A stretch of 57,144 bases of DNA from IMG/VR virus record IMGVR_UViG_3300010370_000043, positions 1-57,144 of that record, one strand, 5' to 3'. This document shows positions 7,648 through 57,143 of the stretch, piece after piece; the stretch's first letter is position 1, and each line of letters starts with the position of its first letter. The notes beneath the pieces are model-generated. The model did not search any database and was not told the DNA's origin. It saw only the letters and a list, made by a program, of their open reading frames with translations. Origin of the DNA: a virus. The position numbers and the translations under genes were made by a program.

Positions 7648-7665
7648 TTCTGTATAGCTTTCAAC
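7648..7665 (-). promoter_or_regulatory. late-type motif GTTGAAAGC-TA-TACAGAA
   Basis: A full nine-base match to the GTTGAAAGC block with the A/T-rich TACAGAA element two bases on, 29 bases before the ATG at 7636. It directly follows the terminator of the upstream SSB-like gene, as expected for a new transcription unit. Confidence 0.65.
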
Positions 7666-7668
7666 GTG

Positions 7669-7699
7669 AAAAAGGCGGAGAGATCCGCATCCCTCCGCC
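7669..7699 (-). terminator. intrinsic terminator after the SSB-like gene
   Basis: On the minus strand GGCGGAG pairs with CTCCGCC over seven pairs. GAT/ATC inner pairs extend the stem around a CCGC loop. A run of five T follows. A second hairpin, CTGATCG/CGATCAG at 7714-7734, overlaps the stop codon of the gene at 7731, so the transcript ends in two tandem stem-loops. Confidence 0.8.
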
Positions 7700-7730
7700 C
7701 GTCAGTTTATTAACTGATCGAAGAAGCCGA

Positions 7731-8684
7731 TCAGAAGTTCAGATCCAGAGCGTCATCGCTGATCTCTTCCTGTGCAGAAAGAATCATCGAGCAGCGGATG
7801 CGAACTTTACCGTCCTGCATCACCGTCTTATCCTTGATGTGGATAGTCGCGGGTTTCTCGGCCGAAACCTCGGGCTGGGTAGCCAGAAGCGGACGGAGAG
7901 ATGCATGAGCCCAGCACTCGGCGGTTTCACCGGGAACGGGATAGTCAGCCAGAATGATACGGTACGACGCACCGTATTGGGTGTTAACTCCGCGGTAGCT
8001 TACCACCGTGTAGCTCTCACCCTCTTCCAGATCACGAAAATCGATATCGTGGTCGGCGTTTTGGCGGCTACCAGTTCCTTTGGGGGTTGCTTCTTGAACT
8101 TGGGAGAGGATATCCTCTTCCTTGTTCTTTTTCATCAGTGCGTTGAGCGCCTTGATTTCGGGGGGATTTTGCCAATCGACAAAACGTACGGCGATGGGGA
8201 GAACGACCTGCCCAGATCCGTCTTCTTCATCTACCGATACCATCAGCGCTGCGTCGTTGCCACGACCACTGAAATTGAATTCGGCAAACTCAGACTCGAG
8301 AGACACGGGTTGACCGTTGATATCAACAGTTACACCCTCTTTCCCGAGAGAAACCGGGATGTAACGGTTACCCCACTGGATGTAGGCGCGACCGGATTCG
8401 GTACCCTCCACATTGTCCGCACCGACCTTCAGGATCGGACCGAAGAGACGATTGTAAACGCCGTCTTCCGCCTTGATAAGGAAAGTGTTTTCTTCGAGCG
8501 GCAGCTCTTCGCCAGTCAGGGCGAGAAACACTTTATCAAGATCGCGCCGCATTGCTTTTGGCAGGTTGGCGTTAGGAAGAGAGGTATATGCTCCCGTATA
8601 CTCACGACCTGCCAGAGGTGCGAGATCTGGAGATCCGGTTCCTACTTGGATTGTCTTGACTGTAAACGCTGTAGTTGTTGCCAT
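7731..8684 (-). CDS. probable single-stranded DNA-binding protein
   Basis: I infer an ssDNA-binding role, not a direct family match. About residues 205-235 (DLEEGESYTVVSYRGVNTQ, then YGASYRI) have the strand pattern of an OB-fold, and the C-terminus ends in an acidic tip, ISDDALDLNF, like the partner-binding tails of bacterial SSB and phage gp32-type proteins. A central stretch (ALMKKNKEEDILSQVQ) is charged and flexible. I start at ATG 8684; an in-frame GTG at 8699 would add five residues. An extended -10 promoter, a 5' leader hairpin and tandem 3' hairpins make it a well-insulated single gene, which suits a highly expressed early protein. Confidence 0.5.
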   Translation of the reverse strand: MATTTAFTVKTIQVGTGSPDLAPLAGREYTGAYTSLPNANLPKAMRRDLDKVFLALTGEELPLEENTFLIKAEDGVYNRLFGPILKVGADNVEGTESGRAYIQWGNRYIPVSLGKEGVTVDINGQPVSLESEFAEFNFSGRGNDAALMVSVDEEDGSGQVVLPIAVRFVDWQNPPEIKALNALMKKNKEEDILSQVQEATPKGTGSRQNADHDIDFRDLEEGESYTVVSYRGVNTQYGASYRIILADYPVPGETAECWAHASLRPLLATQPEVSAEKPATIHIKDKTVMQDGKVRIRCSMILSAQEEISDDALDLNF

Positions 8685-8707
8685 TGGGTTAGTTCTCACT
8701 AGATATG

Positions 8708-8728
8708 GTCGGCTCAGGAGTGGCCGAC
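8708..8728 (-). promoter_or_regulatory. leader hairpin between promoter and SSB-like gene
   Basis: GTCGGC and GCCGAC form a perfect six-pair stem around a nine-base loop in the untranslated leader, 25-45 bases before the start codon. No T run follows, so it is not a terminator. It could be an RNA stabiliser or a translational operator. Confidence 0.45.
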
Positions 8729-8734
8729 AAGAGA

Positions 8735-9046: not shown

Positions 9047-9047
9047 G

Positions 9048-9761
9048 CTAAAACCTCCTTACTTTTTCATGACCAACCCGTATAGACGGATTGACCCACA
9101 TGTCTATTTTCGCGTCGCGTAAATTAAACGCGAAAGAAAGATCTTCTGATAGTACCTCGTAATCCTCGGAACGGTTGTAACGAATAATTTTTGGTGCAAA
9201 CCACGGGAATTTGAGTTTTTCCATGACTCCCTTCCGTATCAGCATCCAACCCATACCGCACCAATCAATACGATACGGTTCTTTTCTGTTTACAATGTCT
9301 GTGTCGTTTCGAAACGAATAAATATAGTCGATATCATAGATGGGTAACGGTGGATCATTAGGTTCAGGATAGGGGAACTCAGTTTTATTAAAATAACCGG
9401 TAACAGGTAAACCATTGGATTGATAGTACCAGCCAGTAGCTACTTCAACATTCATAGTAATCAAAGCATCGAAGTCGGAAGGCTTGAAATCGATGTCAGA
9501 GTCTATCCAAAGTAGGTAGTCATACACTAATTGATTAGTGAACGGTCTTTGATAAAGACCGTTGCTGTGGTGACCTCCAGCGACTTGTGCTCGTATTTGG
9601 TGGATTTCAGGCGAGTACCCTTGAGATAAAGTGGCGATTAGTCCGTATTTTCGCAAGTGATTCTCAAGTAGCACAAGATTTTCTACGAACCGGTAGGAAT
9701 ACGTATAACCCGGAAGACAGATAACAACTCGAGAACCTGAATACGACGTAATATCGTGCAT
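9048..9761 (-). CDS. glycosyltransferase-like protein, GT-A fold (tandem copy 2)
   Basis: It probably transfers a sugar from a nucleotide donor. It has the GT-A layout: a first strand VVICLPGYTYS, a DxD-type metal/nucleotide site WIDSD with D87 and D89, and a C-terminal half with GMGWMLIRKGVMEKL and SEDLSFAFNLRDA. Most of the chain aligns with the neighbour at 9766, so the pair arose by tandem duplication. I choose ATG 9761, which gives 237 residues against 238 in the partner; an in-frame ATG at 9794 would overlap that gene. The target might be host surface polysaccharide, virion protein or DNA; the sequence does not say. Confidence 0.7.
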   Translation of the reverse strand: MHDITSYSGSRVVICLPGYTYSYRFVENLVLLENHLRKYGLIATLSQGYSPEIHQIRAQVAGGHHSNGLYQRPFTNQLVYDYLLWIDSDIDFKPSDFDALITMNVEVATGWYYQSNGLPVTGYFNKTEFPYPEPNDPPLPIYDIDYIYSFRNDTDIVNRKEPYRIDWCGMGWMLIRKGVMEKLKFPWFAPKIIRYNRSEDYEVLSEDLSFAFNLRDAKIDMWVNPSIRVGHEKVRRF

Positions 9762-9765
9762 GGCA

Positions 9766-10482
9766 TTAGATAACCCGAATCTTCTCATGGCCAACCCGAA
9801 CTTCAGGATTCATGACAATCTCAAAACCTGCATCGCGCAGACTGAGTTGGAACGACAAATCTTCTGACAACGTGTCAATGATCGTTTCAGTTGCTCGGAC
9901 GTTTTTTGGGGCAAACCATGGGTACGGAATTTTTTCCATTACTCCTTTTTTAATAAGCATCCAACCCATTCCAACCCAGTCAACCACATAAGAGTCGGTT
10001 TTATCGGAAATATCTTTATCTGGGCGAAACAAATAGGTGTGACCAGGGTCGTATAGAGGTAGTGACGGATGTGATTTTACCTTTTTACACGCAGACTTGT
10101 CAATGAATCCACAGGCCGGATTTCCATCTGGTTGGTAGTACCAACCTGTCGCGACATTGACACCCATTTCCAAAAGATCTGTGAAATTTTTTCGGTTGAA
10201 CACAATGTCCGAATCGATCCATAGCAGGTAATCGTAGTCGACTTCGGCTTCATCAAACGGTGTTTGAAACGTCCCTCTAGTGACATCTCCACCACCACAA
10301 ATATTCCGTAGCCTGTGGATACAGGAAGAGTGAGTCTGGGCTAGGGTTACCTTTATGCCGTGAACAGCCAGCAGACTGTTAAGACCTACGATGTTTGTAA
10401 GAAAAGTCCCGGAGTAGTAGTCTCCAGGAAGGCAAAAAACAAATTTCTTGCCTTCGTATTTTTCGAGTAATGGGTCGGACAC
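9766..10482 (-). CDS. glycosyltransferase-like protein, GT-A fold (tandem copy 1)
   Basis: The paralogue of the downstream gene. The start is GTG 10482. Landmarks: FVFCLPGDYYSG at the N-terminus, a THSSCIHRLRN segment, WIDSD with D90 and D92 as the likely metal site, then GMGWMLIKKGVMEKI and SEDLSFQLSLRDAG. It differs from copy 2 by more cysteines and a different middle part, suggesting different substrates. An extended -10 box (10511-10519) drives it, so the pair and the nitrogenase-C-like gene likely form one operon. Confidence 0.72.
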   Translation of the reverse strand: MSDPLLEKYEGKKFVFCLPGDYYSGTFLTNIVGLNSLLAVHGIKVTLAQTHSSCIHRLRNICGGGDVTRGTFQTPFDEAEVDYDYLLWIDSDIVFNRKNFTDLLEMGVNVATGWYYQPDGNPACGFIDKSACKKVKSHPSLPLYDPGHTYLFRPDKDISDKTDSYVVDWVGMGWMLIKKGVMEKIPYPWFAPKNVRATETIIDTLSEDLSFQLSLRDAGFEIVMNPEVRVGHEKIRVI

Positions 10483-10510: not shown

Positions 10511-10519
10511 ATTATAACA
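10511..10519 (-). promoter_or_regulatory. extended -10 promoter of glycosyltransferase operon (TGTTATAAT)
   Basis: A perfect TGT-TATAAT on the minus strand, 29 bases upstream of the GTG at 10482 and just after the stop of the large fibre gene at 10525. Confidence 0.55.
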
Positions 10520-10524: not shown

Positions 10525-13500
10525 CTACTGTACGCGCATGATATATGCGAGTGAGTACCAAAGCGGTTCGACAGCGCTGACACCTGATAAAGAGTGAGAG
10601 TGGCCGACGGAGGGATCAGATCCACCTGCCAAACTATTTTGATTACCGGGTGCACAAAGTCCATCCGTTATACATCCACCACCTCCGCCAGTCCAAGAGT
10701 TACCCGTATTGATTACCACGTTGGAGTAGTTTGCTCCATCCGTACCGCCAAGAATATTAATTACGCTGTTGCCATATACTCCATGGACGTGACGAGGGAT
10801 ATTTTGCTGCTGAAGAGCAGTTGCCCCAGTTGCTCCAGTAAGGGTAGGTCCACCAGATTGATTATTGTTAGCGGTTGTAGTTGCACCCTTAATGAAACGG
10901 TTTAGCAGGTTGGGTGTCGTGCGACCGTTTTTTGTTTGACCGTCACATATAGCCCAACGGGGATTTGTTGCGATATCTTCTACCGTACCAGACCACATAA
11001 TAATGCCACCGACTGGTACAAAACCTCCATAGCTCGGGTCGACGTTTACGGTATACTGTAAAATGTTGTCGGTTGGGTCGGCAGGGTCACCACCGGGAAC
11101 TTCAACAGACTGGCTAGTAACCAGAATGCCCGTACCCTGCACGAATGCGCTTTCAAACCGGAGATTAAGCTCTTGGGCTAGGTTGAACGCGCTGACCGCT
11201 ACTTTGTCACTAATGCCTGTCGACTGACTACCCAGAGCGCCACGGATCATGGATTGATCAGCGAGTTGAATGATGCCGGCTTTAGACGTGCTGGCATACA
11301 CCTGGGGTGGATTTCTACTGGCGACAATGTCGCCAGTGGTAAGCGACTTAAATATTGTATCGTTGCTGAAGAATACGGTGGTGTTACGACCTAGCACCAG
11401 ACTTGAGTCGTCCTGCATTAAAAGGGTGTTGCGGACGATGACATTGTTCAGGATCTGGTTGGTCACGTTGCCCGGTTCGCCTTCGGCTGCCAGCGGAATC
11501 GCGAATTGCTCGCCGGACCTAAGGTCAAAGACCGTCGTACCAATGTAATAACTGCCTTCCTCGTTCATGCCGGTGGCGTATACTCGGCCGCCGTTTTCCT
11601 CAACGATAATTTTTCCTAGCGCAAAATCCTGCTCTAGCGGATCGCCTTGGAAAGTGGGGAACGCAGTGTCATAGTTCAGGTATCCTGTCCATTCCCAGGT
11701 GTGACCTGAAGCACGGATTACAGATGGACGGCGTAGGCCGATTCGGAAACCGGTGGCTGTTACACTAGCCGACGTCTTAATGGTTATCGGAGTTACCGAC
11801 GGACCCAACGCAGCACTGTAGTGGACACCTGACCGGGCTTGCATTGCCTGCAGGGCGATCTTTGTGATGCTCTCAGCCGGGTCTTCCGTTAGTTCCGGGT
11901 AGTCGTTATCAACTCTAGGATAGTGATCACCTGTAAATACGTTTCGGGCTTGAGAACCCTGAGTAAGGTAAGTTACGTACTGACCAGGGAATCGGATGTC
12001 TTGTTTACCAGGTCTAAAAACCTCATCGTAAGTTCGAACCTGTGTAATAGTTAACGGATCAAGACGCAATTCATTGGAGTCGTTAAGAGGATAACCTGAT
12101 ACCCCCTCTTGTTTCTCCATGATATAGTACGGTTGTGGTCTCCTGATACCACGTTCTTTTAGGTAGCCGTCTAAAACAACACGATACACCCTTTCATCCG
12201 CCTTACGTTTATCCGTCGCACGGATAATTTTAATTGCTGAGCGGTCGAAAATAAAATCTAGAGTGGAGAATATAGCATTGGTACCGGTTGGATTACTGGT
12301 CAGTTTGTATCTAAAAGCATAGTCAAATCGCTTTAACAGATAACCATCATCATCCAAGTCGGTATCTTCTTCAGCAATAGTTGAGGTCGTAATAGGAACA
12401 TACCAGCTAGCACTACCGGTTACAGGGTCGCCATTAGAGTCGAGATCTGCTGGACTTTCGTCCCAGACAAAAATCTTAGATCGATCGTCTAAGGCTGTAA
12501 ACCCGCTAGTGTTAGGGTCTGGGTCTTTAAGATTGCCAGCGAATAAAATCGAATTACCATTTTCATCAAATCCATTAACATAAATTCGTCGACGGTTCGC
12601 TCTTTCCGGACCACCAGAGAGTTCCCATGCCGTCTCACTAACCTTTTTAGTGTAAGAAAACTGTCCAAACGCAATATTAGATGCGGATGGAGGATTTACA
12701 ATAGAGAACGGGGACGCGGTGTTGGAGTTTTGAATGTAAATTCGGATTGTTGCTGGAGGCTTTCCGTCGACTGTCGGGTTATTTTTTACATACGCTAGGG
12801 TTTTGTTGTAATCAATGGTAATACCAGTATTTATTTCGGTATCTTCAAGAGTAGGAGGACGTCCATCAGGCAATGCACTGTATGAAAGAGGCAGAGGAGG
12901 AATTATTTGGGTAATACGAGTGCCACTATATCCCGATGCTGTGGTTGCTTCGTCTTGACTAAACGACTTTGCTTTGTAGCCAATACCTCGAAGTGAAATA
13001 TCACCAAAATCAGAGCAGGAATTAGTAATTGATAAGTCGGCTCCAGATTCAGATACGAAGTGGTCGCTATTACCAATAACGAATACTGAGACGATCTGAA
13101 TCGTCGCATCGTTACTACCCCGCATACCAAAACTTCGGTACTTGAATTCGTCAGTCGTACAAATTTTATATTGTTTGCCTTCCCCTGATTGTTTGTTGGT
13201 TGGCGGATCTTGGAAATAAGTAGTAGGTGTGAAACAATTAGGATCGGTTTGTAGGGAGACCTGGGTAAAGTTTGCGGTCACCATTGATTTGAAGCCGGAT
13301 ACTCGGCCTCCATCGGCCCATAGACCGTTTAGTCCAAAAATACTCCGAACGGAACAGTTAAAGACGTAAGGAGATGAGGAGCGGGTAGAGTTGATATCGG
13401 GAAGAGGAAGGATACTGCCATCCGTGTCTCGGATTCTTGTTGCACCAGGGTAGGATACAGGAGCACCAGCACGGCTATCACCACCGTCAACCAGCAGGCC

Positions 13501-15687
13501 AGTTTGGTTTTCTTCAATATCCTGCGACCGATTGGCTTTACTACCTGCAATCGGTGCGACAATGGTGGTTTCGGCTGGAATAGCTTCGAGGCCTTCTGAG
13601 CCCCAACCGTCAATATCACGGAAAAGATTATTGAGTCGGCTGTAATATGAAGATTCTGTACCGCTACCGTTGATTTCTGCCTGTGACGCGAACGCGACAG
13701 AGGTTACGGTATTATGGCTGCGGGCGTATTGAGGGTTGTCAGTGAAAGTGAGCAAGGAAACATATGTACCACCAGTAACTTTTAGGATCGCGGTGCGCTC
13801 AGTTTGAGGATCGTTCTGTACTGGGGTTAACTCCGGTACGTACATCGGTCGAATACGTACTTTTCTCAGGTCGGTGCCGTCGATCGAAATACCTCTTGGA
13901 ACGATAAGGCCACCGGTTTGTGGGTTAACAGCGGCGAGGTTATCGTAATATAGATCATCGTTAATACTGAACGCACCGTTTACATATTCAAGGGTTACAA
14001 TCCAGTTAGAGTTAGACGGTGAAATTTTTTCTACCCGGACAACATTGCCAACACCACCCGATTCAGAGTACAAAACACGACCGAGGTTTAAGGAGCGGGG
14101 AGGTTGGTTAGAGACCGGATCGCCAACATCGATAGTAAGATGGACAACTCGATCGCCTTGAGCTACGCTGCCAATGCTATAACCAGTCTGGGTTCTTTGT
14201 ACAAGGCCGGTATCGTCGGTAATAGTAAGCGTGGCCAGTGAACCGGGAGCATTATCGACATAGTAGTCGCCTGGAGCAAGCTCGATCATCACTCGGTCGT
14301 AACGGTCATTTGCTTGACCAGATCTGCGTGACTCTCGCACCGCCTCGATCAACGCACGCTCAAGTGTACGGAAGGGGCGGTTAGGCTCAAAACCACCATT
14401 ACGGATCGAATCGTCACCGATACTCGGATCGACGAAGATTGTATTACGGGTAGTTGATAATGCAGATGCTTGGCCGGTACGGTCGCAACGCGGTGCAGCG
14501 GCGACACTGATTAAACCGCCAGTCCCATTAGCGTACAGAGCAACGGAGTTATCATAAACACGGTAACACTTGCCCAGAGTCGGATTAGATTGAGATGGTT
14601 CGAAACTATAAATGCCCGCACTAGGTTCTGGATATTGGGTGGGAAGCTTACCTCCATCCGGACACTCAACAGCAGTCCGATCACCGATAAATTCACGACC
14701 GCCACAAGATAGAAACGCACCGAGGACAGGATTGCACTCAGATCCTGGTGCTTCTTCAAATTTCCACTGGCCGGTACCGGAGTGGTAAAACAACTCCAGG
14801 TGCGCGTCTCGAATGTTAACAATCCAGTCGTCGCTGGAGTTATTGAGCAGTTCGGCAGATACGGAATTCTGGCGAATGATTAGCGGAAACCGGTCAAACG
14901 TGCCACTGATGTCCACCACAGCGATGCGGTCGGAGTCGTTGGGGGATTCTGGCAGAGTGAGGATGATACTGCCATTGCTAGTGTCGGCAATAACCCGATC
15001 CCATGCCATCGCGGTATAATCCGCTGACTTAATCACCGTATTGGTGAGGTTCTGTGGGTAGGTATTGAGGTTGCCGACAAACGTATTGGGCCTGAGATCT
15101 ACATAGCCGGTGCCTACAACTTCGCCCGTTGTTGGGTTAGTAGCTAAACCATTTCCGGTGGAGTTTAGCGTAATTTTCGCTAGTGGTACATGTGCCTCGG
15201 TTACACTGGGTAACGAGTTACCGATTGATACGGTAACGGGAGCGGTGGCGTTTTCAAGAACATAGAGGTAAGATACGCTATTCGCACCGCCAAGGATTTG
15301 AACGGTCTGTCTTGCCCAAGAAATCGGATTGCCATTACGCTTAACAATGCTACCCGCTTCTACTGTTACACCGATACCACCTGAACCGACAGGGCGGGTA
15401 CTAGGTACACCAGGAACGACTACGGCCGATGTTGTTAGATTCCAACCTAGTACGATGCCATCGTGAGCCGTACGACCTAACGCGGATTCTTGATCGACCC
15501 GGGGATCGGCAATTTCCCAATCTTTGATTCGGTCACGTTGACCAATTTGCCAACCCGCCTCATCGCCAGTTGTCGGGTCGGCGTAGTAGTCGGTTCGAGT
15601 ATCGCCGGTAAACTTTTCTCCTTTCTGTACCTCATTCAGGTACGCGCTAGATACGGCTCTGCCGTTTTGAAATACGATACGATCCAC
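10525..15687 (-). CDS. large virion protein with tail-collar domain, 1720 aa
   Basis: A baseplate-anchored fibre or adhesin. The N-terminal ~100 residues (MDRIVFQNGRAV..., RDRIKDWEIADPRVDQE) look like a baseplate attachment module. Near residue 430 an FVDPSIGDDS...PFRTLERAL segment and then APGDYYVDN suggest a right-handed beta-helix of the type seen in large cyanophage structural proteins. Near the C-terminus, about residues 1570-1710, GGIIMWSG, WAICDGQ and TPNLLNRFIKG mark a phage tail-collar domain. Paired histidines (PRHVHGV, GHSHSL) may bind metal as in T4 gp12. Start is GTG 15687, with a late motif 18-35 bases upstream. It probably contacts the host surface. Confidence 0.8.
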   Translation of the reverse strand: MDRIVFQNGRAVSSAYLNEVQKGEKFTGDTRTDYYADPTTGDEAGWQIGQRDRIKDWEIADPRVDQESALGRTAHDGIVLGWNLTTSAVVVPGVPSTRPVGSGGIGVTVEAGSIVKRNGNPISWARQTVQILGGANSVSYLYVLENATAPVTVSIGNSLPSVTEAHVPLAKITLNSTGNGLATNPTTGEVVGTGYVDLRPNTFVGNLNTYPQNLTNTVIKSADYTAMAWDRVIADTSNGSIILTLPESPNDSDRIAVVDISGTFDRFPLIIRQNSVSAELLNNSSDDWIVNIRDAHLELFYHSGTGQWKFEEAPGSECNPVLGAFLSCGGREFIGDRTAVECPDGGKLPTQYPEPSAGIYSFEPSQSNPTLGKCYRVYDNSVALYANGTGGLISVAAAPRCDRTGQASALSTTRNTIFVDPSIGDDSIRNGGFEPNRPFRTLERALIEAVRESRRSGQANDRYDRVMIELAPGDYYVDNAPGSLATLTITDDTGLVQRTQTGYSIGSVAQGDRVVHLTIDVGDPVSNQPPRSLNLGRVLYSESGGVGNVVRVEKISPSNSNWIVTLEYVNGAFSINDDLYYDNLAAVNPQTGGLIVPRGISIDGTDLRKVRIRPMYVPELTPVQNDPQTERTAILKVTGGTYVSLLTFTDNPQYARSHNTVTSVAFASQAEINGSGTESSYYSRLNNLFRDIDGWGSEGLEAIPAETTIVAPIAGSKANRSQDIEENQTGLLVDGGDSRAGAPVSYPGATRIRDTDGSILPLPDINSTRSSSPYVFNCSVRSIFGLNGLWADGGRVSGFKSMVTANFTQVSLQTDPNCFTPTTYFQDPPTNKQSGEGKQYKICTTDEFKYRSFGMRGSNDATIQIVSVFVIGNSDHFVSESGADLSITNSCSDFGDISLRGIGYKAKSFSQDEATTASGYSGTRITQIIPPLPLSYSALPDGRPPTLEDTEINTGITIDYNKTLAYVKNNPTVDGKPPATIRIYIQNSNTASPFSIVNPPSASNIAFGQFSYTKKVSETAWELSGGPERANRRRIYVNGFDENGNSILFAGNLKDPDPNTSGFTALDDRSKIFVWDESPADLDSNGDPVTGSASWYVPITTSTIAEEDTDLDDDGYLLKRFDYAFRYKLTSNPTGTNAIFSTLDFIFDRSAIKIIRATDKRKADERVYRVVLDGYLKERGIRRPQPYYIMEKQEGVSGYPLNDSNELRLDPLTITQVRTYDEVFRPGKQDIRFPGQYVTYLTQGSQARNVFTGDHYPRVDNDYPELTEDPAESITKIALQAMQARSGVHYSAALGPSVTPITIKTSASVTATGFRIGLRRPSVIRASGHTWEWTGYLNYDTAFPTFQGDPLEQDFALGKIIVEENGGRVYATGMNEEGSYYIGTTVFDLRSGEQFAIPLAAEGEPGNVTNQILNNVIVRNTLLMQDDSSLVLGRNTTVFFSNDTIFKSLTTGDIVASRNPPQVYASTSKAGIIQLADQSMIRGALGSQSTGISDKVAVSAFNLAQELNLRFESAFVQGTGILVTSQSVEVPGGDPADPTDNILQYTVNVDPSYGGFVPVGGIIMWSGTVEDIATNPRWAICDGQTKNGRTTPNLLNRFIKGATTTANNNQSGGPTLTGATGATALQQQNIPRHVHGVYGNSVINILGGTDGANYSNVVINTGNSWTGGGGGCITDGLCAPGNQNSLAGGSDPSVGHSHSLSGVSAVEPLWYSLAYIMRVQ

Positions 15688-15704: not shown

Positions 15705-15722
15705 TTCTATTACGCTTTCAAC
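15705..15722 (-). promoter_or_regulatory. late-type motif GTTGAAAGC-GT-AATAGAA
   Basis: Exact GTTGAAAGC block with AATAGAA two bases on, 35 bases before the GTG at 15687, in the 40-base gap after the gene at 15728. Confidence 0.65.
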
Positions 15723-16219: not shown

Positions 16220-16237
16220 TTCTACTACGCTTTCAAC
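16220..16237 (-). promoter_or_regulatory. late-type motif, minus half of divergent pair (GTTGAAAGC-GT-AGTAGAA)
   Basis: Starts one base from its plus-strand partner, so that GCTTTCAAC-C-GTTGAAAGC (16229-16247) forms an inverted repeat. It serves the GTG at 16204, 33 bases away. Confidence 0.65.
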
Positions 16238-16238
16238 C

Positions 16239-16256
16239 GTTGAAAGCGCTTTAGAG
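16239..16256 (+). promoter_or_regulatory. late-type motif, plus half of divergent pair (GTTGAAAGC-GC-TTTAGAG)
   Basis: Plus-strand partner of the motif at 16220-16237. It stands 34 bases before the GTG at 16273 and is the only visible promoter for the baseplate-terminase operon. Confidence 0.65.
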
Positions 16257-16272: not shown

Positions 16273-17283
16273 GTGTCAACGTTTCTCACTGATTCTTGGT
16301 CGACAATTTCCGGACTTGCCGCAGTTGCGTATGGGTCTCCGGGTCGGTACCAGGACGTGGCTAACCAGGTGCGGAGTAAATCAGTACTAGCATTTTTAGG
16401 AACGACTCAGCCGAGCGATATTGTTGAGAATGTTTTAAACCCAGAGCATGTCCTAGTGGCGTTACAAAGTGAATATGAAGCTGGTGAAGGATTTACGAGG
16501 TATGTAGACTCAGGATCTAAGACAATACAAGCGATAGCCAGTGACTTGTATAGCAAAATTCTCCAGGCTTATAATGAATTCGGGACGTACGAATCCTCGC
16601 TAACTGACTCACTGGAATATGTTTCAAACGGATTAGGGATTAATAATCAAAGGGTAAAAGATAAACTACTGGCCACAGTTTCCGATCTCGAGCTTTTTAG
16701 TCGAATGGCGGCTAATATGCCAATCAATAAGCTTGATAAACTTCCTTCCGGAGCAAAGATTAATTTAAACGATAGCGTTAATCTAGATACTGATTCCAAC
16801 GGTGTTGCGTTGACTACCGGGTACTTAACTCCCTCTCAATACTGGAACGGTACTGCGTACCCTGGTGCAGGAAGTACGGCGGATAATTTACCGAACACGT
16901 TTATAACCTCGTTGACCGAAGGCTACAAGGGTTACGCGACCCTTCAACCCCTCGACGACCTGCTCCGCCCCGGTCTTGCCTCACTCGTATCTCTTGCCGA
17001 CATTAACGACCTTCGAAACGTCTCTCGCTCTGTTTCCGGTCTTGGAACCATCAGTACGGCCAAGGATCTTACTGGCCTTGGTCGATTCAGTATAGCGGAT
17101 GAGGCAATGTACAACCTTGACCTGGCGGAGATTATTGTCGAACGAAACGGTTACACGGTTTACGACCCGCTGACTGATTCGAATGGTGATTTTATTGATC
17201 CGGCGAACGTACCAGATTACGATGGTGTTAATGCCGACTCTGGATTACCTTATTCTTCCCGCATCCGCTCAAGCACATTTTAA
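16273..17283 (+). CDS. baseplate-region protein of unknown type, 336 aa
   Basis: Unrecognised; first gene of the plus-strand baseplate operon. It starts with GTG 16273 and ends three bases before the baseplate J gene, so it is co-expressed. The chain is mostly helical, with a repeated DLELFSR/LADINDLRNV pattern and no cysteine. From position it may be a baseplate wedge or a tail-tip component, but this is context only. Confidence 0.65.
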   Translation: MSTFLTDSWSTISGLAAVAYGSPGRYQDVANQVRSKSVLAFLGTTQPSDIVENVLNPEHVLVALQSEYEAGEGFTRYVDSGSKTIQAIASDLYSKILQAYNEFGTYESSLTDSLEYVSNGLGINNQRVKDKLLATVSDLELFSRMAANMPINKLDKLPSGAKINLNDSVNLDTDSNGVALTTGYLTPSQYWNGTAYPGAGSTADNLPNTFITSLTEGYKGYATLQPLDDLLRPGLASLVSLADINDLRNVSRSVSGLGTISTAKDLTGLGRFSIADEAMYNLDLAEIIVERNGYTVYDPLTDSNGDFIDPANVPDYDGVNADSGLPYSSRIRSSTF

Positions 17284-25100: not shown

Positions 25101-25109
25101 TGCTATAAT
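25101..25109 (+). promoter_or_regulatory. extended -10 promoter (TGCTATAAT) before thioredoxin-sigma genes
   Basis: A perfect TGC-TATAAT nine bases after the terL stop, 30 bases before the ATG at 25139. It would let the thioredoxin-like protein, sigma factor and HNH-type protein be expressed by host polymerase before the late genes that precede them. Confidence 0.6.
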
Positions 25110-30410: not shown

Positions 30411-30425
30411 CGGTTTCGTTTGCTA

Positions 30426-42573: not shown

Positions 42574-42591
42574 CTCTATAGAGCTTTCAAC
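42574..42591 (-). promoter_or_regulatory. late-type motif GTTGAAAGC-TC-TATAGAG
   Basis: A consensus copy two bases from the stop of the gene at 42594 and 38 bases before ATG 42553, so the LRR gene and its downstream neighbour have their own start within the virion cluster. Confidence 0.7.
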
Positions 42592-49687: not shown

Positions 49688-51946
49688 TCAGAAGGAATGG
49701 GCGATTAGGTTGCCGTCAGCGACGAAGTAGTTAGAGCGAACGATAAATAATGAGCCGCCCAAGAATTCAATGGGGGTAGATGATAGCGAGAGGCCGGAGA
49801 TAGGATTTAGAAGAAGAGAGTTAGTGTCGGAATCGATACTGACTACGGTATACGCAGCGGTTTGATCCCAAGCATTAAGACCGGAGTTGCTGAAACCGGA
49901 GATTCGAATCTTATCATTTTCGGTGCTTGTGGCTGAGTAGATTTGAAAACTTAACAGATCGCTAGGGTTTCGCAGAGCGATAGCGATATACGGGTTGCCA
50001 CCGATTGTCCTGCTGCAGATAGATAGTGGTGAAAATCCTCGAGATCCATTACCAATCAACACGGTCGCGGTTACTTCGTACATATAACCGTTTACACTGG
50101 TTAACGTGTTCGTTGCGGGCAAGGTTTTACCACCTACCGTTGCGGTTGTGGTACCTGGTAAGGTAAGGGAAAAAATTCCCGCATCAAGCTGAGCGGCGGT
50201 TTCGAGTACTCGGAAAGATCCGACAGCAGGAGTCGTCTTTAATCCGGCTGCGTTCAACGCGAAGATGTCCGCGTTTATTGAGTTCTTGACAATACCGACG
50301 GACTCACCACCCAACGTTACGGTCATGTACACGGGGTCAAGAGCAATACCCTGACGGACTTCAATTGTTGCTTTACTGTACTCGTTGTTGTAGGTATCGA
50401 TAGAGCGGATGACGGAGTCGTTATCGCTATAGGCCAGGTTACCCTGAGCGTTCCACTGGAACGAGGTTTCAAGTGTTAGGCCGTTATCCCCACACGACCG
50501 GATTATATTACCGTTTATTGTGCTGTATTCGGTGCTGATGACTCGTGGACCAGTAGTTGCGAATTCGAAGCGATTACCCTGAGCGACGATGTTTTCGCTA
50601 GTATCGATTAGTAATGGTGATACGGTTTGTTCGTAGGCGCGGCCGGTAAACTGTACCGTGTTGTTGGTAATAACAGCTCCACGTGTACCGTATAGTGCGA
50701 TGCCGCCTCCGCCGCATTCAGTCACCGTGCAGTCGTTGATAACAATGTTGTCGCCATATTTGACCTGTAACCCTACCTCCGATGTGACCGGTGATATTTG
50801 CGAAAACGATTCGCCTCTATTGCCATCGATTGCTATTGAACGGATGCGGATGCCGGAGACTCTTGGTGATACGGATTCTCCCGTAAAGTTCAAAACTCCC
50901 GGGGTTGTCGGATTGCTTAACGTACACGCAAGGCGTTTGAGTACCGAACCGTCTCCAATACCCCTAAGTGAAAGGTTGGAGAAATCAGATTGTGACGTAT
51001 TAACAAACGACGTATCGGAAATATTGTAGATGCCGGCTGGGAAAAATACCTCTTTGATTGAACCGGACGCAGCAAGAGATAACGCATTACGGACGGATTC
51101 GGTATCGTCGATGACAAAGCGAGCAGTGTGTCCGGCGGCGAGTTGGCTGCCGGCAGAGATCCCGGTACATTGAATGTAGCTGGGTAAAGAACCGAGAGGG
51201 TTAGGAATAATCCTTAACCGCTCCCGACCTCGCACTCTCCGGATCTGTGTAACCTCTGACCCCGCAACGGAAAATACGTTGGACAGGTAGGAGGGGAGGA
51301 CGGGGTCGGACTCCCACCCTGGAATTTCTAGCAGACCGAGGTCGCGAAAGACGTTATTCCCTGAACCCGGGTAGCCAACTTTGTTATTTCCGATAACTCC
51401 GAGAAAATCAACCCGGTTACCCCAGACTCGGTAGATAACCGGCAATGCGTATTGCGTAGTTCGAGAAAAAGTAAGCTGAACGTATTGTTCAGTTCCCCAT
51501 AAGTCGGGGTTCAAAACTTTTGTTCCAACGCTAACCACTGATCTAAAGAACGGCAAGCGACCGTTTTGTGGATCGAATCCGAAGACGTAATAGGTTAACG
51601 GAGCAAGGTTAGCGTTTGTGCCAGGGGAAGTTGAGAAATTAACACCGACGGAGGTGTGGGCGGATACGGAAAGAATTGGAGTATCGACGACAGTTGGGGA
51701 GTCGTATGAGAAGACTTGCAGGCCGGTGCCAGACTTAAGCACGTCCTGGTATTGAAACAACGAGTTACCATTTCCGTCATCGATGCTTGAAATGGTAACA
51801 ATGTTATCGCTAATATCTGATATTGTTCCCGTAAACTCTAGTTCACCTCGGCCGGTCGCTCCGAGATTTCGTACGTTAACGTACGCGTTTCGATCTTCTG
51901 GAACCTGGACTACAACGTCCCCTGACCTCTCCGGTATGTACCGCAT
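49688..51946 (-). CDS. beta-helix tailspike, pectate-lyase-like, 752 aa
   Basis: A likely receptor-binding or polysaccharide-degrading spike. After an N-terminal domain, about residues 285-520 show the parallel beta-helix pattern: FVIDDTESVRNALSLA, KEVFFPAGIYNIS, then repeated short strands LSLRGIGDG, IRIRSIAIDGNRG, NIVINDCTVTECGGGGIALYGT, AVITNNTVQFTG and NIVAQGNRFEF. The opening FPAGxY is typical of pectate_lyase_3 tailspikes. Catalytic acids cannot be placed. ATG 51946 is 29 bases after a late motif that begins inside the stop region of the upstream small gene. Confidence 0.75.
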   Translation of the reverse strand: MRYIPERSGDVVVQVPEDRNAYVNVRNLGATGRGELEFTGTISDISDNIVTISSIDDGNGNSLFQYQDVLKSGTGLQVFSYDSPTVVDTPILSVSAHTSVGVNFSTSPGTNANLAPLTYYVFGFDPQNGRLPFFRSVVSVGTKVLNPDLWGTEQYVQLTFSRTTQYALPVIYRVWGNRVDFLGVIGNNKVGYPGSGNNVFRDLGLLEIPGWESDPVLPSYLSNVFSVAGSEVTQIRRVRGRERLRIIPNPLGSLPSYIQCTGISAGSQLAAGHTARFVIDDTESVRNALSLAASGSIKEVFFPAGIYNISDTSFVNTSQSDFSNLSLRGIGDGSVLKRLACTLSNPTTPGVLNFTGESVSPRVSGIRIRSIAIDGNRGESFSQISPVTSEVGLQVKYGDNIVINDCTVTECGGGGIALYGTRGAVITNNTVQFTGRAYEQTVSPLLIDTSENIVAQGNRFEFATTGPRVISTEYSTINGNIIRSCGDNGLTLETSFQWNAQGNLAYSDNDSVIRSIDTYNNEYSKATIEVRQGIALDPVYMTVTLGGESVGIVKNSINADIFALNAAGLKTTPAVGSFRVLETAAQLDAGIFSLTLPGTTTATVGGKTLPATNTLTSVNGYMYEVTATVLIGNGSRGFSPLSICSRTIGGNPYIAIALRNPSDLLSFQIYSATSTENDKIRISGFSNSGLNAWDQTAAYTVVSIDSDTNSLLLNPISGLSLSSTPIEFLGGSLFIVRSNYFVADGNLIAHSF

Positions 51947-51957: not shown

Positions 51958-51975
51958 TCTACTTTAGCTTTCAAC
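51958..51975 (-). promoter_or_regulatory. late-type motif GTTGAAAGC-TAA-AGTAGAG
   Basis: Complete GTTGAAAGC with the distal element one base farther than usual. The motif is read through as the final codons (Val-Glu-Ser-stop) of the gene at 51964. Confidence 0.6.
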
Positions 51976-52552: not shown

Positions 52553-52861
52553 TTAGCTCCAGATTGCGGTGTTAATAAACTGCGCGGCGTGCATGCCGAC
52601 TAAATCCACTCGGCGGATTGGGGAGTACGCGGTTTCGGGGTCTGACTCCACCTCGATGACGTTACGGGCGAGGACGAGAGGGATCTCGGATCCAAAACCA
52701 TCCTGGAGTCGGCCCTGGTTGCGGAGGGCGAGGTTGCCGGTTCGGCGGAGGGGTAAGAACGTGGTCGGTACACCGTCAGTATCCGGTTGACCGGTGACGG
52801 TTGTAAGGACGAGATTTGAAAATGTCTTACTGACATCAAAATCCCTAATACCTTGTGCCAT
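52553..52861 (-). CDS. small virion protein, 102 aa
   Basis: ATG 52861, 41 bases after a consensus late motif. MAQGIRDFDVSKTFSNLVLTTVTG at the N-terminus and RRVDLVGMHAAQFINTAIW at the end are similar in style to small conserved structural proteins of cyanophages. First gene of the transcript running to the virion cluster at 51946. Function unknown. Confidence 0.6.
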   Translation of the reverse strand: MAQGIRDFDVSKTFSNLVLTTVTGQPDTDGVPTTFLPLRRTGNLALRNQGRLQDGFGSEIPLVLARNVIEVESDPETAYSPIRRVDLVGMHAAQFINTAIWS

Positions 52862-52884: not shown

Positions 52885-52902
52885 CTCTATAGGGCTTTCA
52901 AC
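52885..52902 (-). promoter_or_regulatory. late-type motif GTTGAAAGC-CC-TATAGAG
   Basis: Exact core and perfect TATAGAG, in the 126-base gap between divergent genes at 52861 and 52988. Confidence 0.7.
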
Positions 52903-52951: not shown

Positions 52952-52969
52952 GTTGAAAGTAACTGTGTA
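52952..52969 (+). promoter_or_regulatory. weak late-type motif before GIY-YIG gene (GTTGAAAGT-AA-CTGTGTA)
   Basis: Eight of nine core bases match, but the distal element does not. It is 36 bases before the ATG at 52988, the usual spacing, and on the right strand. A nearby TATAGAA at 52940-52946 is unplaced. Confidence 0.35.
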
Positions 52970-52987: not shown

Positions 52988-53902
52988 ATGGACACATACT
53001 ACACCTATTTGTCTTATGAAGAACATGATTTTGGAAGGATGTACATAGGCTACAGAAAATGCCCCAAAGGTAAAACTCCTGAAACAGACCCTTACATGGG
53101 ATCTTACTCAGATAAAACTTTTAAACCTACTGCTAAATTTATCCTAGGTCGCTATGGTTCTAGGGAAGAAGCTATGAGGGCTGAGATAAAATTTCACGAA
53201 GATAATGATGTCGCGAAAGATCTTAGATTTGCTAATAAAGCTCGCTCCTTAAGTACAGGGTTTAGCTTTAACAGGAAGGGAGAAAAAATGTCTAATGAAG
53301 CTCGGGGAAAGATGTCTATGTCAAGGATGGGTAGTAAAAATCCCAGGTATACTCCTAAAGACTGGTATCACCCGGACTATGGAGAAATTTTTCAAGTTTC
53401 TGTATCCGAATTGATGAGAATATACCCTTATCAGGGATTACACCAAAGTTTTCTAAGTCTAGTATCGAATGAAATTAGGCTTCGTCATAGGGGTTGGCGT
53501 CTTTTAAAAAATAAAAATGTAGTAGATAGAAGTAAGAAAAACATTAATCACGACTGGTATCATAGGGAGCACGGAGAAGTTTTGCAAAAATCTATATCTG
53601 ATATAGTTAAAGATTACCCTAATGAAAAATACAGTCCTTCAGGTTTGTGCTCAGTTGCTAATGGAGGAGTTTTTCGATACAGGGGATGGATACTTTTGAA
53701 AAATAAAGATGCTAAAGTCAGACCTAAGAAAAATATTCCTCGGAACTGGTATCACCCTTTGTACGGAAAATTTATCGGAAAATCTGCCCCTGATCTTATT
53801 AAAATGTTTCCCGAACAAAATCTGACCAGAAGCGGATTGCACAGGGTTGCTACCGGAAAGGCTTTCCGGCATAAGGGGTGGACTAAGGCGGAAGAACCCT
53901 GA
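52988..53902 (+). CDS. GIY-YIG homing endonuclease with three C-terminal repeats
   Basis: Homologue of the gene at 31198 with the same N-terminal layout (YYTYLSY, then RMYIGYRKCPKGKTPETDPYMGSY and KFILGRYGSREEA). Here the NUMOD3 array is nearly absent (a single ARGKMSMSRMGS). Three copies of the ~55-residue module follow instead: DWYHPDYGEI...HRGWRLLKNKN, DWYHREHGEV...YRGWILLKNKD and NWYHPLYGKF...HKGWTKAEEP. The Lys-rich, AT-rich composition marks it as a transferred element. It lies in an intergenic space between divergent genes, so it disrupts nothing. Confidence 0.8.
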   Translation: MDTYYTYLSYEEHDFGRMYIGYRKCPKGKTPETDPYMGSYSDKTFKPTAKFILGRYGSREEAMRAEIKFHEDNDVAKDLRFANKARSLSTGFSFNRKGEKMSNEARGKMSMSRMGSKNPRYTPKDWYHPDYGEIFQVSVSELMRIYPYQGLHQSFLSLVSNEIRLRHRGWRLLKNKNVVDRSKKNINHDWYHREHGEVLQKSISDIVKDYPNEKYSPSGLCSVANGGVFRYRGWILLKNKDAKVRPKKNIPRNWYHPLYGKFIGKSAPDLIKMFPEQNLTRSGLHRVATGKAFRHKGWTKAEEP

Positions 53903-54483: not shown

Positions 54484-54801
54484 TCACCACGGTACGCCTG
54501 AGGCTTTGGTAGGTTGACGCTGCTCTAGGATTTGCTGTTCCAGAGCGGCGTGAATCTCATCGATTTTTTCCGCACCGCCTAGCTTTTCTTTTACCCAGCC
54601 GATTACGATATCGGAGGTAAGTTCGGAGTACGGGATGACGGTATCTCCTTCTGCCGGGGCTTCGAGGCCGATAGAACCATAGGCGCCGGAACTGTAGACG
54701 TTGTCGGTGGCGGAAACTTGGTAATGCGCTGTGTATACAATGCCATCGGCAGTGTGTCGTTCTAGATTAGCGATGGACCAGGTGAATTGGATGTCAGACA
54801 T
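54484..54801 (-). CDS. DUF7936-like phage protein, 105 aa
   Basis: Recognisable phage protein of unknown function: DIQFTWSIANLERHTADGIVYTAHYQV at the start, VIGWVKEKLG in the middle and TKASGVPW at the end. I know this arrangement from marine and freshwater cyanophages. ATG 54801 is 35 bases downstream of a variant late motif (GTTGATAGC-TAC-TATAGGG). It may be a virion component, given the late motif. Confidence 0.65.
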   Translation of the reverse strand: MSDIQFTWSIANLERHTADGIVYTAHYQVSATDNVYSSGAYGSIGLEAPAEGDTVIPYSELTSDIVIGWVKEKLGGAEKIDEIHAALEQQILEQRQPTKASGVPW

Positions 54802-54817
54802 AACAATAATGGGAGTA

Positions 54818-54836
54818 CCCTATAGTAGCTATCAAC
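54818..54836 (-). promoter_or_regulatory. variant late-type motif GTTGATAGC-TAC-TATAGGG
   Basis: One mismatch in the core and a three-base spacer. It is in the right place, 35 bases before ATG 54801. Confidence 0.5.
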
Positions 54837-54867
54837 GGAATTTTAGCAAAACGACAGAAAAGATTAG

Positions 54868-57099
54868 TTAACAAGCCATAAGTACACAAGGCACGCAGTA
54901 GCTGCCGTCGCCATAGGTGCAGCTCACGTTGGTGCTGGTGACTTTGGCGATGGTTTTACTGCGGATGATGTCGTCGTCCTGCGGCTTGGCTGTGCCATCA
55001 CCTGCGGACATCAGCAGATCGCCGCGCTGCACCGTGACACCTTCGGCAATGCGGATGATGAAGTCACCCGTCATCGCACAATAGAAATCGTCGGTGTAGG
55101 TGTCGTCGTCATCGTCCCAACCCTGGAACACGCCAGACACGTTGGGGTCGCCTTCCACGTCGGAGACCTTCATGCGGTTGAGTTGTTCGTTCTCTTCTTC
55201 GCCCCAACCACACATCTCGTCGATGTTGCTGAGCACCGTGCCCCGCAGGATTTCGGTGCGCTCTACGCCGCCAGGAAGCTGGGAATAGCGGGATAGGTGA
55301 GCACCGTTATAGGAGACGGTGGTGCCAGAGACGGAGATGGTTCCCTCTAAAACTGTGTCTTGATAAAACTCAATTAAGTTTCCATCGTTAGTGGTTCGAT
55401 TAATTGCTAAAACGTATCCACCAGAACGTGTGACATCTACCGCGTTTGGTCCAACACCTGTGGCGCCGTAAATAGTTAAACCCGCTTGCGACAGCGAGGT
55501 CGGCGCAGATTTTGTACTAATTGAGCCATCACTAGTAATCCTCATCCGCTCCGTCGGAGAACTCGCCCCATCCGCAGTAGTGGAGAACACCAGTCTCCCT
55601 GGGAGATCAGTTGCGCTTTGAGTTGGATCTCCGTCAACGATTGCAGCAATAGAAGCCGCAAAATTGTTCAAGTCAGAGCCATTCGCGCCCGCAAAAGCAA
55701 TCGTTCCAAGATAGTCGCCATTTGCTACCGCAGCAGTGCCACCTGTAGATGTTGAGCGAGTTTTGCCAAAAGTAATACGGCCTTCAGCTCCATCCGCACT
55801 GTTTCTGACAATAGAGATACCAGCGATGCTTCCGCTTGGCGTTTCTTGTTGAATTGGGTGAGAAACAGTTCCTACGCTACGCGCAGTAGACGTGCCCACT
55901 AGCAAGCGTCCCGATGTATCAATTCGCGCTCTCTCACCATTGTTTGCAAAAAATGTAAGACTATGGTTGGAAACAGTTCCAACTATTCCGTCACTGGCAA
56001 AACTTAAAACTGTTTGAATACCACTTGCACTTGTAGAAGCAATAGCCCCTCTCGTATCCAACGCATAGCCAGGGCTCGTGGTGCCAATCCCTACTCTGCC
56101 TCCGTTGGGGCACAGGACAAGTGGTTTGAATTCAGTTCCCCAATGTACTGGTTGAATAAACCCAACTCCATCTGTTATGTTATAACCCATGTACAACTGA
56201 CGACCAGTTGAAGTGCTGGGTTCACCAATGTTGAACGAGGTTGCTACATAAGAAGTAGTTATTGCAGCAACGCTTAGCGATGCGCTAGGCGAACTAGTCC
56301 CTATGCCTACACGGCCTGAGGAGTCGATTCGGGCGCGTTCGGAGCCTCCAACCTTAAATTGAATAATGGGGTTAAAACCATCATTCCCCGCATCAGCATC
56401 AATTTCAAAGCTTCCGTTAATAGAACCAATCCTTGCGTAGCCTCCTTGATTTGTATCCGCAAAACGCATGTATGGATTGTCTGCGCCAAGTGTTAATAAA
56501 TCACCAGGCGAACTGGTCCCTATGCCCACGAGCCCTGCCGAGGTGATGCGCAGGCGTTCGGTACCATTTGTTGCAAATAAAATTGGGTAGGCGCCACTGT
56601 GCCAAAGTGCTGCAGCATATGCCTGGCCAAATGTTGTGCCGGCGCTATTATCTAGGCCGTGATAAAAAATGCCTCCAGCATTAACTGCTTGAATTAACGC
56701 AGAGCTTGTTCCTTGGCTTGACTGACTAATCGTGCCATTTACTTCCAATCTGTAACTGGGCGCTCCCGTACCGACCCCAACATTCCCACTCGCATCCACA
56801 AACAACCTGCCAGACCCACCAGTGCTGATGGCTACTTGGTCTGCGCCGGGGGAGTAAATGCCGGTGTTTGAGTCACCCGTAAACGACAGACTCGGTGCCG
56901 CTGCGGTACCGGCTACCAGAGATATCGAACCATCCGCATTTTCCCGTATCTGCGACCAGTCCAATACTCCGTTGCTGTTTTTAAGAATCTGACCGGATGA
57001 ACCAGAACTGGCCGGAAAGGTTATTTTATTATTACCGGCTACAGGTGCGGCCTCGAGTTCGGTATAGCCAGAGGCTGATCCGTTGAGTCGTAAAGTCAT
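54868..57099 (-). CDS. tail fibre with GIGT repeats and C-terminal autoproteolytic/chaperone domain, 743 aa
   Basis: The N-terminus (LRLNGSASGYTELEAAPVAGNNKI) is a common fibre start. A series of repeats follows, each ending in a GxVGIGTSSP-like turn (about residues 106, 190, 265 and 340, with a LLVGTST variant later). Residues about 600-743 (RTEILRGTVLSNIDEMCGW, then a DDDDDTYTDDFYCAMTGDF stretch and DGSYCVPCVL) match the peptidase_G2 / intramolecular chaperone type that trimerises the fibre and often cleaves itself off. ATG 57099, 44 bases after the late motif at the window's edge. Confidence 0.75.
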   Translation of the reverse strand: MTLRLNGSASGYTELEAAPVAGNNKITFPASSGSSGQILKNSNGVLDWSQIRENADGSISLVAGTAAAPSLSFTGDSNTGIYSPGADQVAISTGGSGRLFVDASGNVGVGTGAPSYRLEVNGTISQSSQGTSSALIQAVNAGGIFYHGLDNSAGTTFGQAYAAALWHSGAYPILFATNGTERLRITSAGLVGIGTSSPGDLLTLGADNPYMRFADTNQGGYARIGSINGSFEIDADAGNDGFNPIIQFKVGGSERARIDSSGRVGIGTSSPSASLSVAAITTSYVATSFNIGEPSTSTGRQLYMGYNITDGVGFIQPVHWGTEFKPLVLCPNGGRVGIGTTSPGYALDTRGAIASTSASGIQTVLSFASDGIVGTVSNHSLTFFANNGERARIDTSGRLLVGTSTARSVGTVSHPIQQETPSGSIAGISIVRNSADGAEGRITFGKTRSTSTGGTAAVANGDYLGTIAFAGANGSDLNNFAASIAAIVDGDPTQSATDLPGRLVFSTTADGASSPTERMRITSDGSISTKSAPTSLSQAGLTIYGATGVGPNAVDVTRSGGYVLAINRTTNDGNLIEFYQDTVLEGTISVSGTTVSYNGAHLSRYSQLPGGVERTEILRGTVLSNIDEMCGWGEEENEQLNRMKVSDVEGDPNVSGVFQGWDDDDDTYTDDFYCAMTGDFIIRIAEGVTVQRGDLLMSAGDGTAKPQDDDIIRSKTIAKVTSTNVSCTYGDGSYCVPCVLMAC

Positions 57100-57125
57100 G
57101 GAATTTTAATACGCGCGTCACCGCC

Positions 57126-57143
57126 TTCTTAAAGGCTTTCAAC
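57126..57143 (-). promoter_or_regulatory. late-type motif GTTGAAAGC-CT-TTAAGAA
   Basis: Exact core at the right edge of the window; the distal part is weaker. Upstream flank is outside the window. Confidence 0.55.

Follow-up and report, generated by a model that had tools for sequence, protein, structure and literature searches.

The window analysed here is a 57,144-base virus record (IMG/VR record IMGVR_UViG_3300010370_000043, without a completeness estimate), taken over its whole length. It is a fragment from an uncultured relative of cyanophage S-TIM5, and its terminase is 58.7% identical to that of S-TIM5. A DNA-level search with the first 25 kb against phage records gave no match in that part. 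Based on PHROG assignments the window encodes tail fibres, baseplate, terminase, virion proteins and ribonucleotide reductase. Two features are the subject of this analysis: a short motif with the core GTTGAAAGC, followed by TAGA and repeated upstream of genes on both strands, which is very probably a late promoter, and a gene for a phage-encoded sigma factor beside the terminase gene, the probable reader of this motif (Table 1). In its original description the S-TIM5 lineage is reported to carry virion genes unlike those of other phages. S-TIM5 and S-TIM54 both possess psbA and psbD, which were found in none of nine fragments of uncultured relatives, so that kinship alone would point to a cyanobacterial host for the window.

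The window contains 14 exact copies of GTTGAAAGC, distributed over the two strands. Allowing one mismatch raises the count to 28, compared with a mean of 12.8 and a maximum of 22 in 100 shuffled sequences. A matrix trained on relatives, with the window and the near-identical record G002 excluded, identified 15 sites with scores of at least 13, against a mean of 0.8 and a maximum of 3 in 15 Markov shuffles. These are the 14 exact cores and one variant at 23460 (score 20.7), whose orthologues may be included in the training set. The repeated motif on both strands, as described in an earlier sequence-only reading of this DNA, is thus real. Thirteen of the fourteen good copies in that reading are exact cores; the one at 54818 has a single mismatch and is not listed by the N4 matrix at a score of 7 or higher, and the exact copy at 1148-1164 (-) had been overlooked. 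A further weak copy at 52952 (GTTGAAAGT) lacks TAGA, scores below 7 and is not supported. The second element had been described as N2/3-TATAGAR, but GTTGAAAGC-N4-TAGA(R) describes the motif better, the gap being 5 bases long at 51975 and 54836; most window copies harbor TAGA or a near match at this fixed distance 3' of the core. Counted from the point where the core begins, a same-strand start codon follows 28-44 nt on for 13 of the 14 exact cores. The 29-45 bases given before are about right as a range, but run from the start of the core and not from the end of the motif. The copy at 33138, formerly set apart as an exception, precedes the PhoH gene with a longer leader (74 nt), as does the core of its S-TIM5 homologue (90 nt), and therefore fits the rule.

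Two sites of less certain standing were also observed. At three sigma loci (L183, L184 and L185) a sequence related to the 23460 site is present, which may reflect coding constraint. The one-mismatch form GTTGATAGC occurs once more at 30422-30430 (-), without a TAGA box, 20 nt before the tail gene 27339-30410 (1023 aa), whose S-TIM5 homologue has a core at 92 nt.

The motif is conserved among uncultured relatives. The strict pattern GTTGAAAGCN{3,6}TAGA was detected in 8 of 11 records, namely S-TIM5 plus ten uncultured relatives identified by their terminase. A 127-kb contig has the most copies, 15; the pattern was absent from S-TIM5 and from two short records. Among 18 further records, 17 sigma relatives and T7, it was found in 15, and T7 contained no copy. 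In both sets the backwards control was zero. The looser pattern GTTKAAAGN{4,6}TA occurs 24, 24 and 23 times in G004, S-TIM5 and S-TIM54, respectively. Synechococcus phage S-CBWM1 (terminase 34% identical) was rejected as a bearer of the motif, with no copy of this pattern and two in the backwards control. A scan of viral contigs for GTTGAAAGCNNTATAGA returned at least 117 stretches, many of them probably by chance, and was not used for any count.

Strand and start-distance tests in relatives, which the sequence-only reading had proposed, came out in favor of the motif. In a set of nine records (the window and eight relatives, again without G002 and not deduplicated) 104 exact cores are present, compared with a mean of 3.0 for 300 permuted 9-mers, and 88 of these lie close to where a called gene on the same strand begins, whereas the pooled value for the permutations is 9.6%. 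Several of the other 16 have a plain start 28-45 nt downstream that was missed by the simple gene caller. TAGA follows the core at an offset of 4 in 42 of the 104 cases, and every other offset accounts for two at most. In a deduplicated logo of 89 sites, in which the core is invariant because only exact copies were chosen, T(A/G)TAGAAG stands out as a block at +11 to +18, T13 and A14 being the strongest positions of its TAGA. C is preferred just 5' of the core, and little else is conserved from -25 to +44. For 41 of 53 deduplicated N4-TA sites the first ATG or GTG of a 60-codon frame lies 28-38 nt from the core start, in a count that considered starts from 20 nt onward only.

The cultured relative S-TIM5 (172 kb) harbors an analogue of GTTGAAAGC, namely GTTTAAAG, which was first spotted by a two-mismatch search. 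It is present in 36 copies. Within 110 nt of an annotated same-strand start there are 27 of these, at 26-92 nt (zone fraction 6.3%), whereas the runner-up among 560 permuted 8-mers, which is GTTTAAAG shifted by one base, reaches eight. When all 8-mers with four or more occurrences 20-60 nt before starts were ranked by start enrichment, GTTTAAAG came first (25 of 36 copies in this zone), followed by its shifted neighbor AGTTTAAA and by TGATATAA, which is part of an extended -10 box. GTTTAAAG precedes 18 of 47 virion genes but only 9 of 165 others (Fisher 9.5e-8). Thirty virion genes have no exact core at 20-60 nt. Of these, 23 overlap or trail a same-strand gene within 25 nt, including the terminase gene, which overlaps 113053-114672. 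The remaining seven comprise 13705 and 60584 with one-off cores, 106128 with a core at 92 nt, and 27083, 61039, 85770 and 164190 without a recognisable core upstream. Furthermore, 16 motif-driven window genes (behind the 14 exact cores, 54836 and 52952) and 22 others were compared with the S-TIM5 proteins. Homologues, some of partial length, were found for 11 of the 16 and 19 of the 22, with two of the 19 pairs sharing one S-TIM5 gene. GTTTAAAG is located within 110 nt upstream of eight of the 11 homologues of motif-driven genes, compared with one of the 19 others (Fisher 2.2e-4). This shared placement indicates that the predicted promoter positions have been kept while one base of the core changed.

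The motif is present in about one copy per transcription unit and is nearly absent before replication and metabolism genes. Position and strand, the bias towards virion genes, conservation in relatives and the placement in S-TIM5 support the proposal of the sequence-only reading that it is the late promoter of the phage, and judged from these sequence patterns it is very probably a promoter, and a late one. Two other parts of that proposal also stood. The spacing is not that of sigma-70, since the logo has no second block at about 17 bp, and the core, GTTGAAAGC or GTTTAAAG, is not the T4 late promoter, whose consensus is TATAAATA.

The sigma factor encoded in the window matches Pfam Sigma70_r2 with 34.8 bits (cut-off 24); no match to region 3 or 4 was obtained with Pfam. 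Together with the S-TIM5 sigma (SigF, F417_gp108) it matches PHROG 351. Around positions 76-81 of the window sigma, region 2.4 residues differ between the window-type and S-TIM5 groups. T4 gp55 matches PHROG 234, and the gp55 family was rejected for the window protein on this ground. By tblastn, matches were found in five phage records, all S-TIM5-group cyanophages, with 38.8-40.2% identity, but no such sigma in S-CBWM1. A scan of viral contigs identified 26 loci encoding it. In the relatives examined, this sigma accompanies the motif, and in S-CBWM1 neither was found by tblastn and the looser pattern, respectively. An HMMER alignment with a SigA covers residues 15-110 (E = 0.017); in it, the tryptophan pair that marks region 2.4 of SigA is replaced by R-S. 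An AlphaFold2 model shows the helix order region 2, region 3, linker and a region-4-like part. The 50 PDB matches listed by Foldseek are, by title, all sigma factors or sigma-bearing polymerase complexes, including sigma-B and sigma-28. The domain order of the model appears credible, its packing does not.

Where the RNA would start is indicated by genes whose start codons lie unusually close to the core. In G002, G003 and G004 the ATG of one gene family is located at core+14, with TATG in place of TAGA; there is an in-frame stop just upstream, and the protein is conserved from about residue 5. The family was sought in 18 other records and was present in seven, with an exact core in all seven and the first possible start at core+14 (three), +16 (three) or +17 (one). 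All ten window-clade orthologues found thus have their first possible start codon at core+14 (six), +16 (three) or +17 (one). A second gene, a virion gene at 68154 of S-TIM54, is also annotated to start at core+14, and its apparent S-TIM5 homologue at 62510 has this start too, behind a GTTTAAAA core. To carry these start codons the RNA must begin at or before core+14. As the conserved A of TAGA occupies this position, +1 is placed there, and the core would span -14 to -6. Most leaders would then be 12-24 nt long, and the mRNAs of these genes are likely to be leaderless or nearly so. Thus the core is more likely a -10-class element and TAGA the start region. The 89-site logo shows no conserved -35, no distant -10 and no second hexamer about 17 bp away on either side. 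The assignment of the core as a -35 block was therefore rejected: the logo has no downstream hexamer, and RNA starting at about core+35 would begin at or downstream of the start codons, most of which are 26-38 nt away from the core. The arrangement of the divergent copies fits a single element as well. Two cores abut at 34197-34230, GCTTTCAAC being directly followed by GTTGAAAGC, and two are one base apart at 16221-16255, which leaves no room for a separate conserved -35 each. S-TIM5 has looser divergent pairs at 57048/57054, 122790/122802 and 49544/49562.

The alternative that survives best keeps the same promoter and sigma in another register, with TAGA or TATAGA as the -10 and GTTGAAAGC as an upstream block at about -25 to -17 that is read by sigma region 3 or 4. 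RNA would then start at about core+24 to +26 and leaders would be 0-12 nt long. This is nearest to the sequence-only reading, which saw a -35-like block beside an A/T box. TAGA is indeed the only other conserved block, strongest at T13-A14, and the S-TIM5 motif genes have weak Shine-Dalgarno sequences, as very short leaders permit (3 of 25 at -4 kcal/mol or below, p = 0.017 compared with other genes). However, genes behind the host-type box TGnTATAAT lack Shine-Dalgarno sequences equally (0 of 12), and both promoter classes are found at similar distances from starts. Shine-Dalgarno strength was therefore discarded as a guide to leader length, as it does not separate the registers. The starts at core+14 to +17, in ten of ten orthologues and the second gene, would precede the RNA start, which makes this register unlikely; start codons are also too close for the core to be a -35-like block.

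The preferred interpretation, held with a probability of about 0.72, is a phage-specific late promoter read by a phage sigma with the core as a lone -10-class element. Host RNA polymerase carrying the phage sigma (25452-26147) would read a single element of 8-9 bp, GTTGAAAGC in the window and GTTTAAAG in S-TIM5, placed like a -10 and without a -35 element, and RNA would start at or next to the A of TAGA, four bases past the core. The phage sigma would thereby activate the virion operons, in two places via divergent promoters with abutting or nearly abutting cores. Recognition by this sigma, the start site and the late timing are predictions from sequence.

Several observations weigh against this interpretation. 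The S-TIM5 sigma scores 23.7 bits, slightly below the Pfam region 2 cut-off of 24. The quality of the sigma model is modest (pLDDT 72, pTM 0.34), and the Foldseek TM-scores are mostly 0.3-0.4 with an rmsd near 20 Å. The model also suggests a region-4-like C-terminus, which a promoter without a -35 would not need. Several of the ten records with starts at core+14 to +17 are close relatives, and in S-TIM5 and S-TIM54 this family has no core but is operon-internal, overlapping the upstream gene; elsewhere, too, it could be read from an upstream promoter. The strict pattern is missing in two of the ten uncultured terminase relatives and two of the 17 sigma relatives, all of them short records, and the looser pattern has a non-zero backwards control (1, 2 and 7 in G004, S-TIM5 and S-TIM54). 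Some of the 16 cores away from called starts seem to be truly off-target (for example G008 43378, 68256 and 37117; G004 242). In S-TIM5 the homologues of three of the 11 motif-driven window genes have no core, and the box 3' of the core is weak and variably spaced.

Other mechanisms have lower probability. Host polymerase with a host sigma might be recruited by a separate phage activator on GTTGAAAGC, likened to MotA at T4 middle promoters, while the phage sigma does another job. For an element read by a sigma, the core varies unusually little, and the connection between sigma and motif is itself a prediction from sequence. However, no TATAAT-like element is found 3' of the core in the 89-site logo, no candidate activator was identified in this analysis, and the relatives examined have the motif along with the sigma, neither having been found in S-CBWM1, so that an activator is improbable. 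A promoter of a phage single-subunit RNA polymerase would explain the compact element without a -35 and the purine-rich start region at the expected place, and TATAGARG resembles the start of T7/SP6-type promoters. But PF00940, which finds T7 RNA polymerase as a positive control, detects nothing in the complete S-TIM5 and S-TIM54 genomes or in three long relatives, and the predicted +1 is A, not G. An earlier search of 11 records for a T7-like polymerase, run without a positive control, also found none. This candidate was rejected as very improbable. An RNA-level element for translation or stability in late leaders, to which the close and fairly constant distance to start codons would be suited, is equally hard to credit, because 23 of the 30 coreless S-TIM5 virion genes lie inside operons, although they would benefit from a translation signal just as much, divergent copies abut, a leader element would not fit before starts at core+14, and the core at 1164 overlaps the end of the upstream gene.

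Expression of the phage sigma itself may depend on the host. A host-type extended -10 box, TGCTATAAT, precedes the sigma operon in the window, and 27 of 29 loci, many of them closely related, have TGnTAnnnT in the 75 nt that precede the operon. In the two exceptions, S-TIM5 and S-TIM54, the corresponding sequences TGGTATAAT and TGGTACAAT are found farther upstream. S-TIM5 has 25 copies of TGnTATAAT, 17 of them followed by a start at a distance of 12-110 nt; the genes behind these are 11 hypothetical, four replication or nucleotide, one bacterial-like and one virion gene. The host-type box before the sigma operon and the scarcity of virion genes behind TGnTATAAT suggest a two-step circuit, in which the host sigma would make the phage sigma from a small operon and the phage sigma would then make the virion. 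Further TGnTATAAT boxes occur in the window at 1695-1703 (-) before 1149-1670 and at 10511-10519 (-) before 9766-10482. The three window boxes, about 33-38 nt from starts, are probable host-type early or middle promoters.

Table 1. Predicted promoter sites, sigma operon genes and the gene family with starts close to the core. Positions refer to the window unless a record is named; distances to start codons are counted from the core's first base.
Feature	Position	Strand	Context
Predicted late promoter, exact GTTGAAAGC-N4-TAGA	1148-1164	-	28 nt before ATG 1136, gene 687-1136
Predicted late promoter, exact core, box CAGA	7649-7665	-	29 nt before gene 7085-7636
Predicted late promoter, exact core	15706-15722	-	35 nt before tail fibre gene 10525-15687
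Predicted late promoter, exact core	16221-16237	-	33 nt before GTG 16204; divergent with 16239
Predicted late promoter, exact core	16239-16255	+	34 nt before 16273-17283, heading baseplate/terminase cluster
Candidate variant GGTGAAAGC-N4-TATA	23460-23476	+	inside 3' end of 20484-23519, before terminase gene
Host-type extended -10 box TGCTATAAT	25101-25109	+	before sigma operon
Small protein, sigma operon gene 1	25139-25462	+	thioredoxin-like CxxC by eye; overlaps sigma gene
Phage-encoded sigma factor, probable reader	25452-26147	+	ATG 25452 picked by eye; beside terminase
Predicted late promoter, exact core, box TGAG	31173-31189	-	44 nt before 30426-31145
Predicted late promoter, exact core	32485-32501	-	36 nt before ATG 32465
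Predicted late promoter, exact core, box TAGG	33138-33154	+	PhoH; 74 nt to open-frame TTG 33212
Predicted late promoter, exact core	34197-34213	-	29 nt before ATG 34184; divergent, abuts 34214 core
Predicted late promoter, exact core	34214-34230	+	36 nt before 34250-37393
Predicted late promoter, exact core	42575-42591	-	38 nt before 39035-42553
Predicted late promoter, exact core, 5-base gap to TAGA	51958-51975	-	29 nt before 49688-51946
Predicted late promoter, exact core	52886-52902	-	41 nt before 52553-52861
GTTGAAAGT, unsupported weak copy, no TAGA	52952-52968	+	matrix score <7
Probable late promoter, GTTGATAGC, one mismatch, 5-base gap, box TAGG	54819-54836	-	35 nt before 54484-54801
Predicted late promoter, exact core, box AAGA	57127-57143	-	44 nt before tail fibre gene 54868-57099
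Conserved gene of ~143 aa, start at core+14 to +17	G002 4100; G003 58825; G004 118207; L201-L207	-; +; +	

Other features of the window were also observed. The open frames 31198-32130 (-) and 52988-53902 (+) have similar N-termini and both lie amid virion genes; the former has a homing-endonuclease match. The tandem related genes 9048-9794 and 9766-10482 (-) each share about 39% identity with a single S-TIM5 gene, which is noted as a glycosyltransferase. An HNH endonuclease gene (1707-2216, -) and a gene for a NUMOD4 protein (5059-5574, -) flank the gene for the ribonucleotide reductase large subunit and are probably mobile endonucleases.

The promoter was not found in the titles and abstract openings listed for S-TIM5, TIM5-like phages and phage-sigma late promoters; the original S-TIM5 paper (PNAS 2012) was not covered, so an earlier description is possible. 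A literature word search for GTTTAAAG gave nothing on it among the matches listed. What emerges is a probable phage late promoter built on a single element, with a sigma that can be tested; for this lineage the listed literature was not found to describe any. The analysis provides a concrete promoter, a candidate sigma and a two-step host-to-phage sigma circuit that can be tested in a cultured phage, and makes late operons of uncultured relatives readable from genome sequence. With its single G/T difference in a core that is otherwise constant, and a sigma that has diverged alongside, the lineage offers a natural experiment on change of sigma specificity. It is conceivable, at somewhat less than even odds, that the S-TIM5 lineage possesses a late-promoter class of its own, in which a sigma of one chain, containing regions 2 and 3 and a divergent region 4, would disregard -35 DNA and recognise a single element of 8-9 bp together with a fixed initiation tetranucleotide. 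The fourth base would be G or T by sub-lineage, with sigmas about 40% identical, and one late gene family would have leaderless or nearly leaderless mRNAs, with the AUG at most 3 nt from +1.

Compared with known systems, the element shares a compact contiguous form and a purine start region with T7/SP6-type promoters, but no single-subunit polymerase was found in S-TIM5 or S-TIM54. T4 late promoters, according to PMC2988020, consist of one 8-bp element without a -35, read by the sigma gp55 with a separate sigma-4 mimic, gp33; gp45 is a further factor of this system. The lone short element at the -10 place, the lack of a -35, the predicted phage sigma on host polymerase and the virion genes are shared with T4, whereas the sequence and the PHROG of the sigma differ and the region-4-like part seems, in the model, to be the sigma's own C-terminus. 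The middle and late promoters of phiEco32 have a single tAATGTAtA with the start 6-8 bp downstream and are read by gp36, a sigma reported to lack region 4 (PMC8948821). A single element, an own phage sigma and the lack of a -35 are common to both, and the start predicted here at core+14 would be 5-6 bp past the core. The sequence is different and a conserved TAGA start region is present here; for the window sigma Pfam gives no region 4, but a model of low confidence suggests a region-4-like end. Phage 7-11, a relative of phiEco32, uses the bipartite GTAAtg-(16)-aCTA, read by the sigma gp47 with region 4 (PMC8948821). It resembles the present case in a phage sigma with a region-4-like part and in late genes, but has a 16-bp spacer, whereas here the blocks are 4 bp apart without a -35. 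Microcystis phage Ma-LMM01 is reported to use host-type promoters throughout (PMC5780444). In its predicted geometry the present promoter is like those of T4 and phiEco32, while the sequence differs, the sigma falls outside the gp55 family and the start tetranucleotide is conserved.

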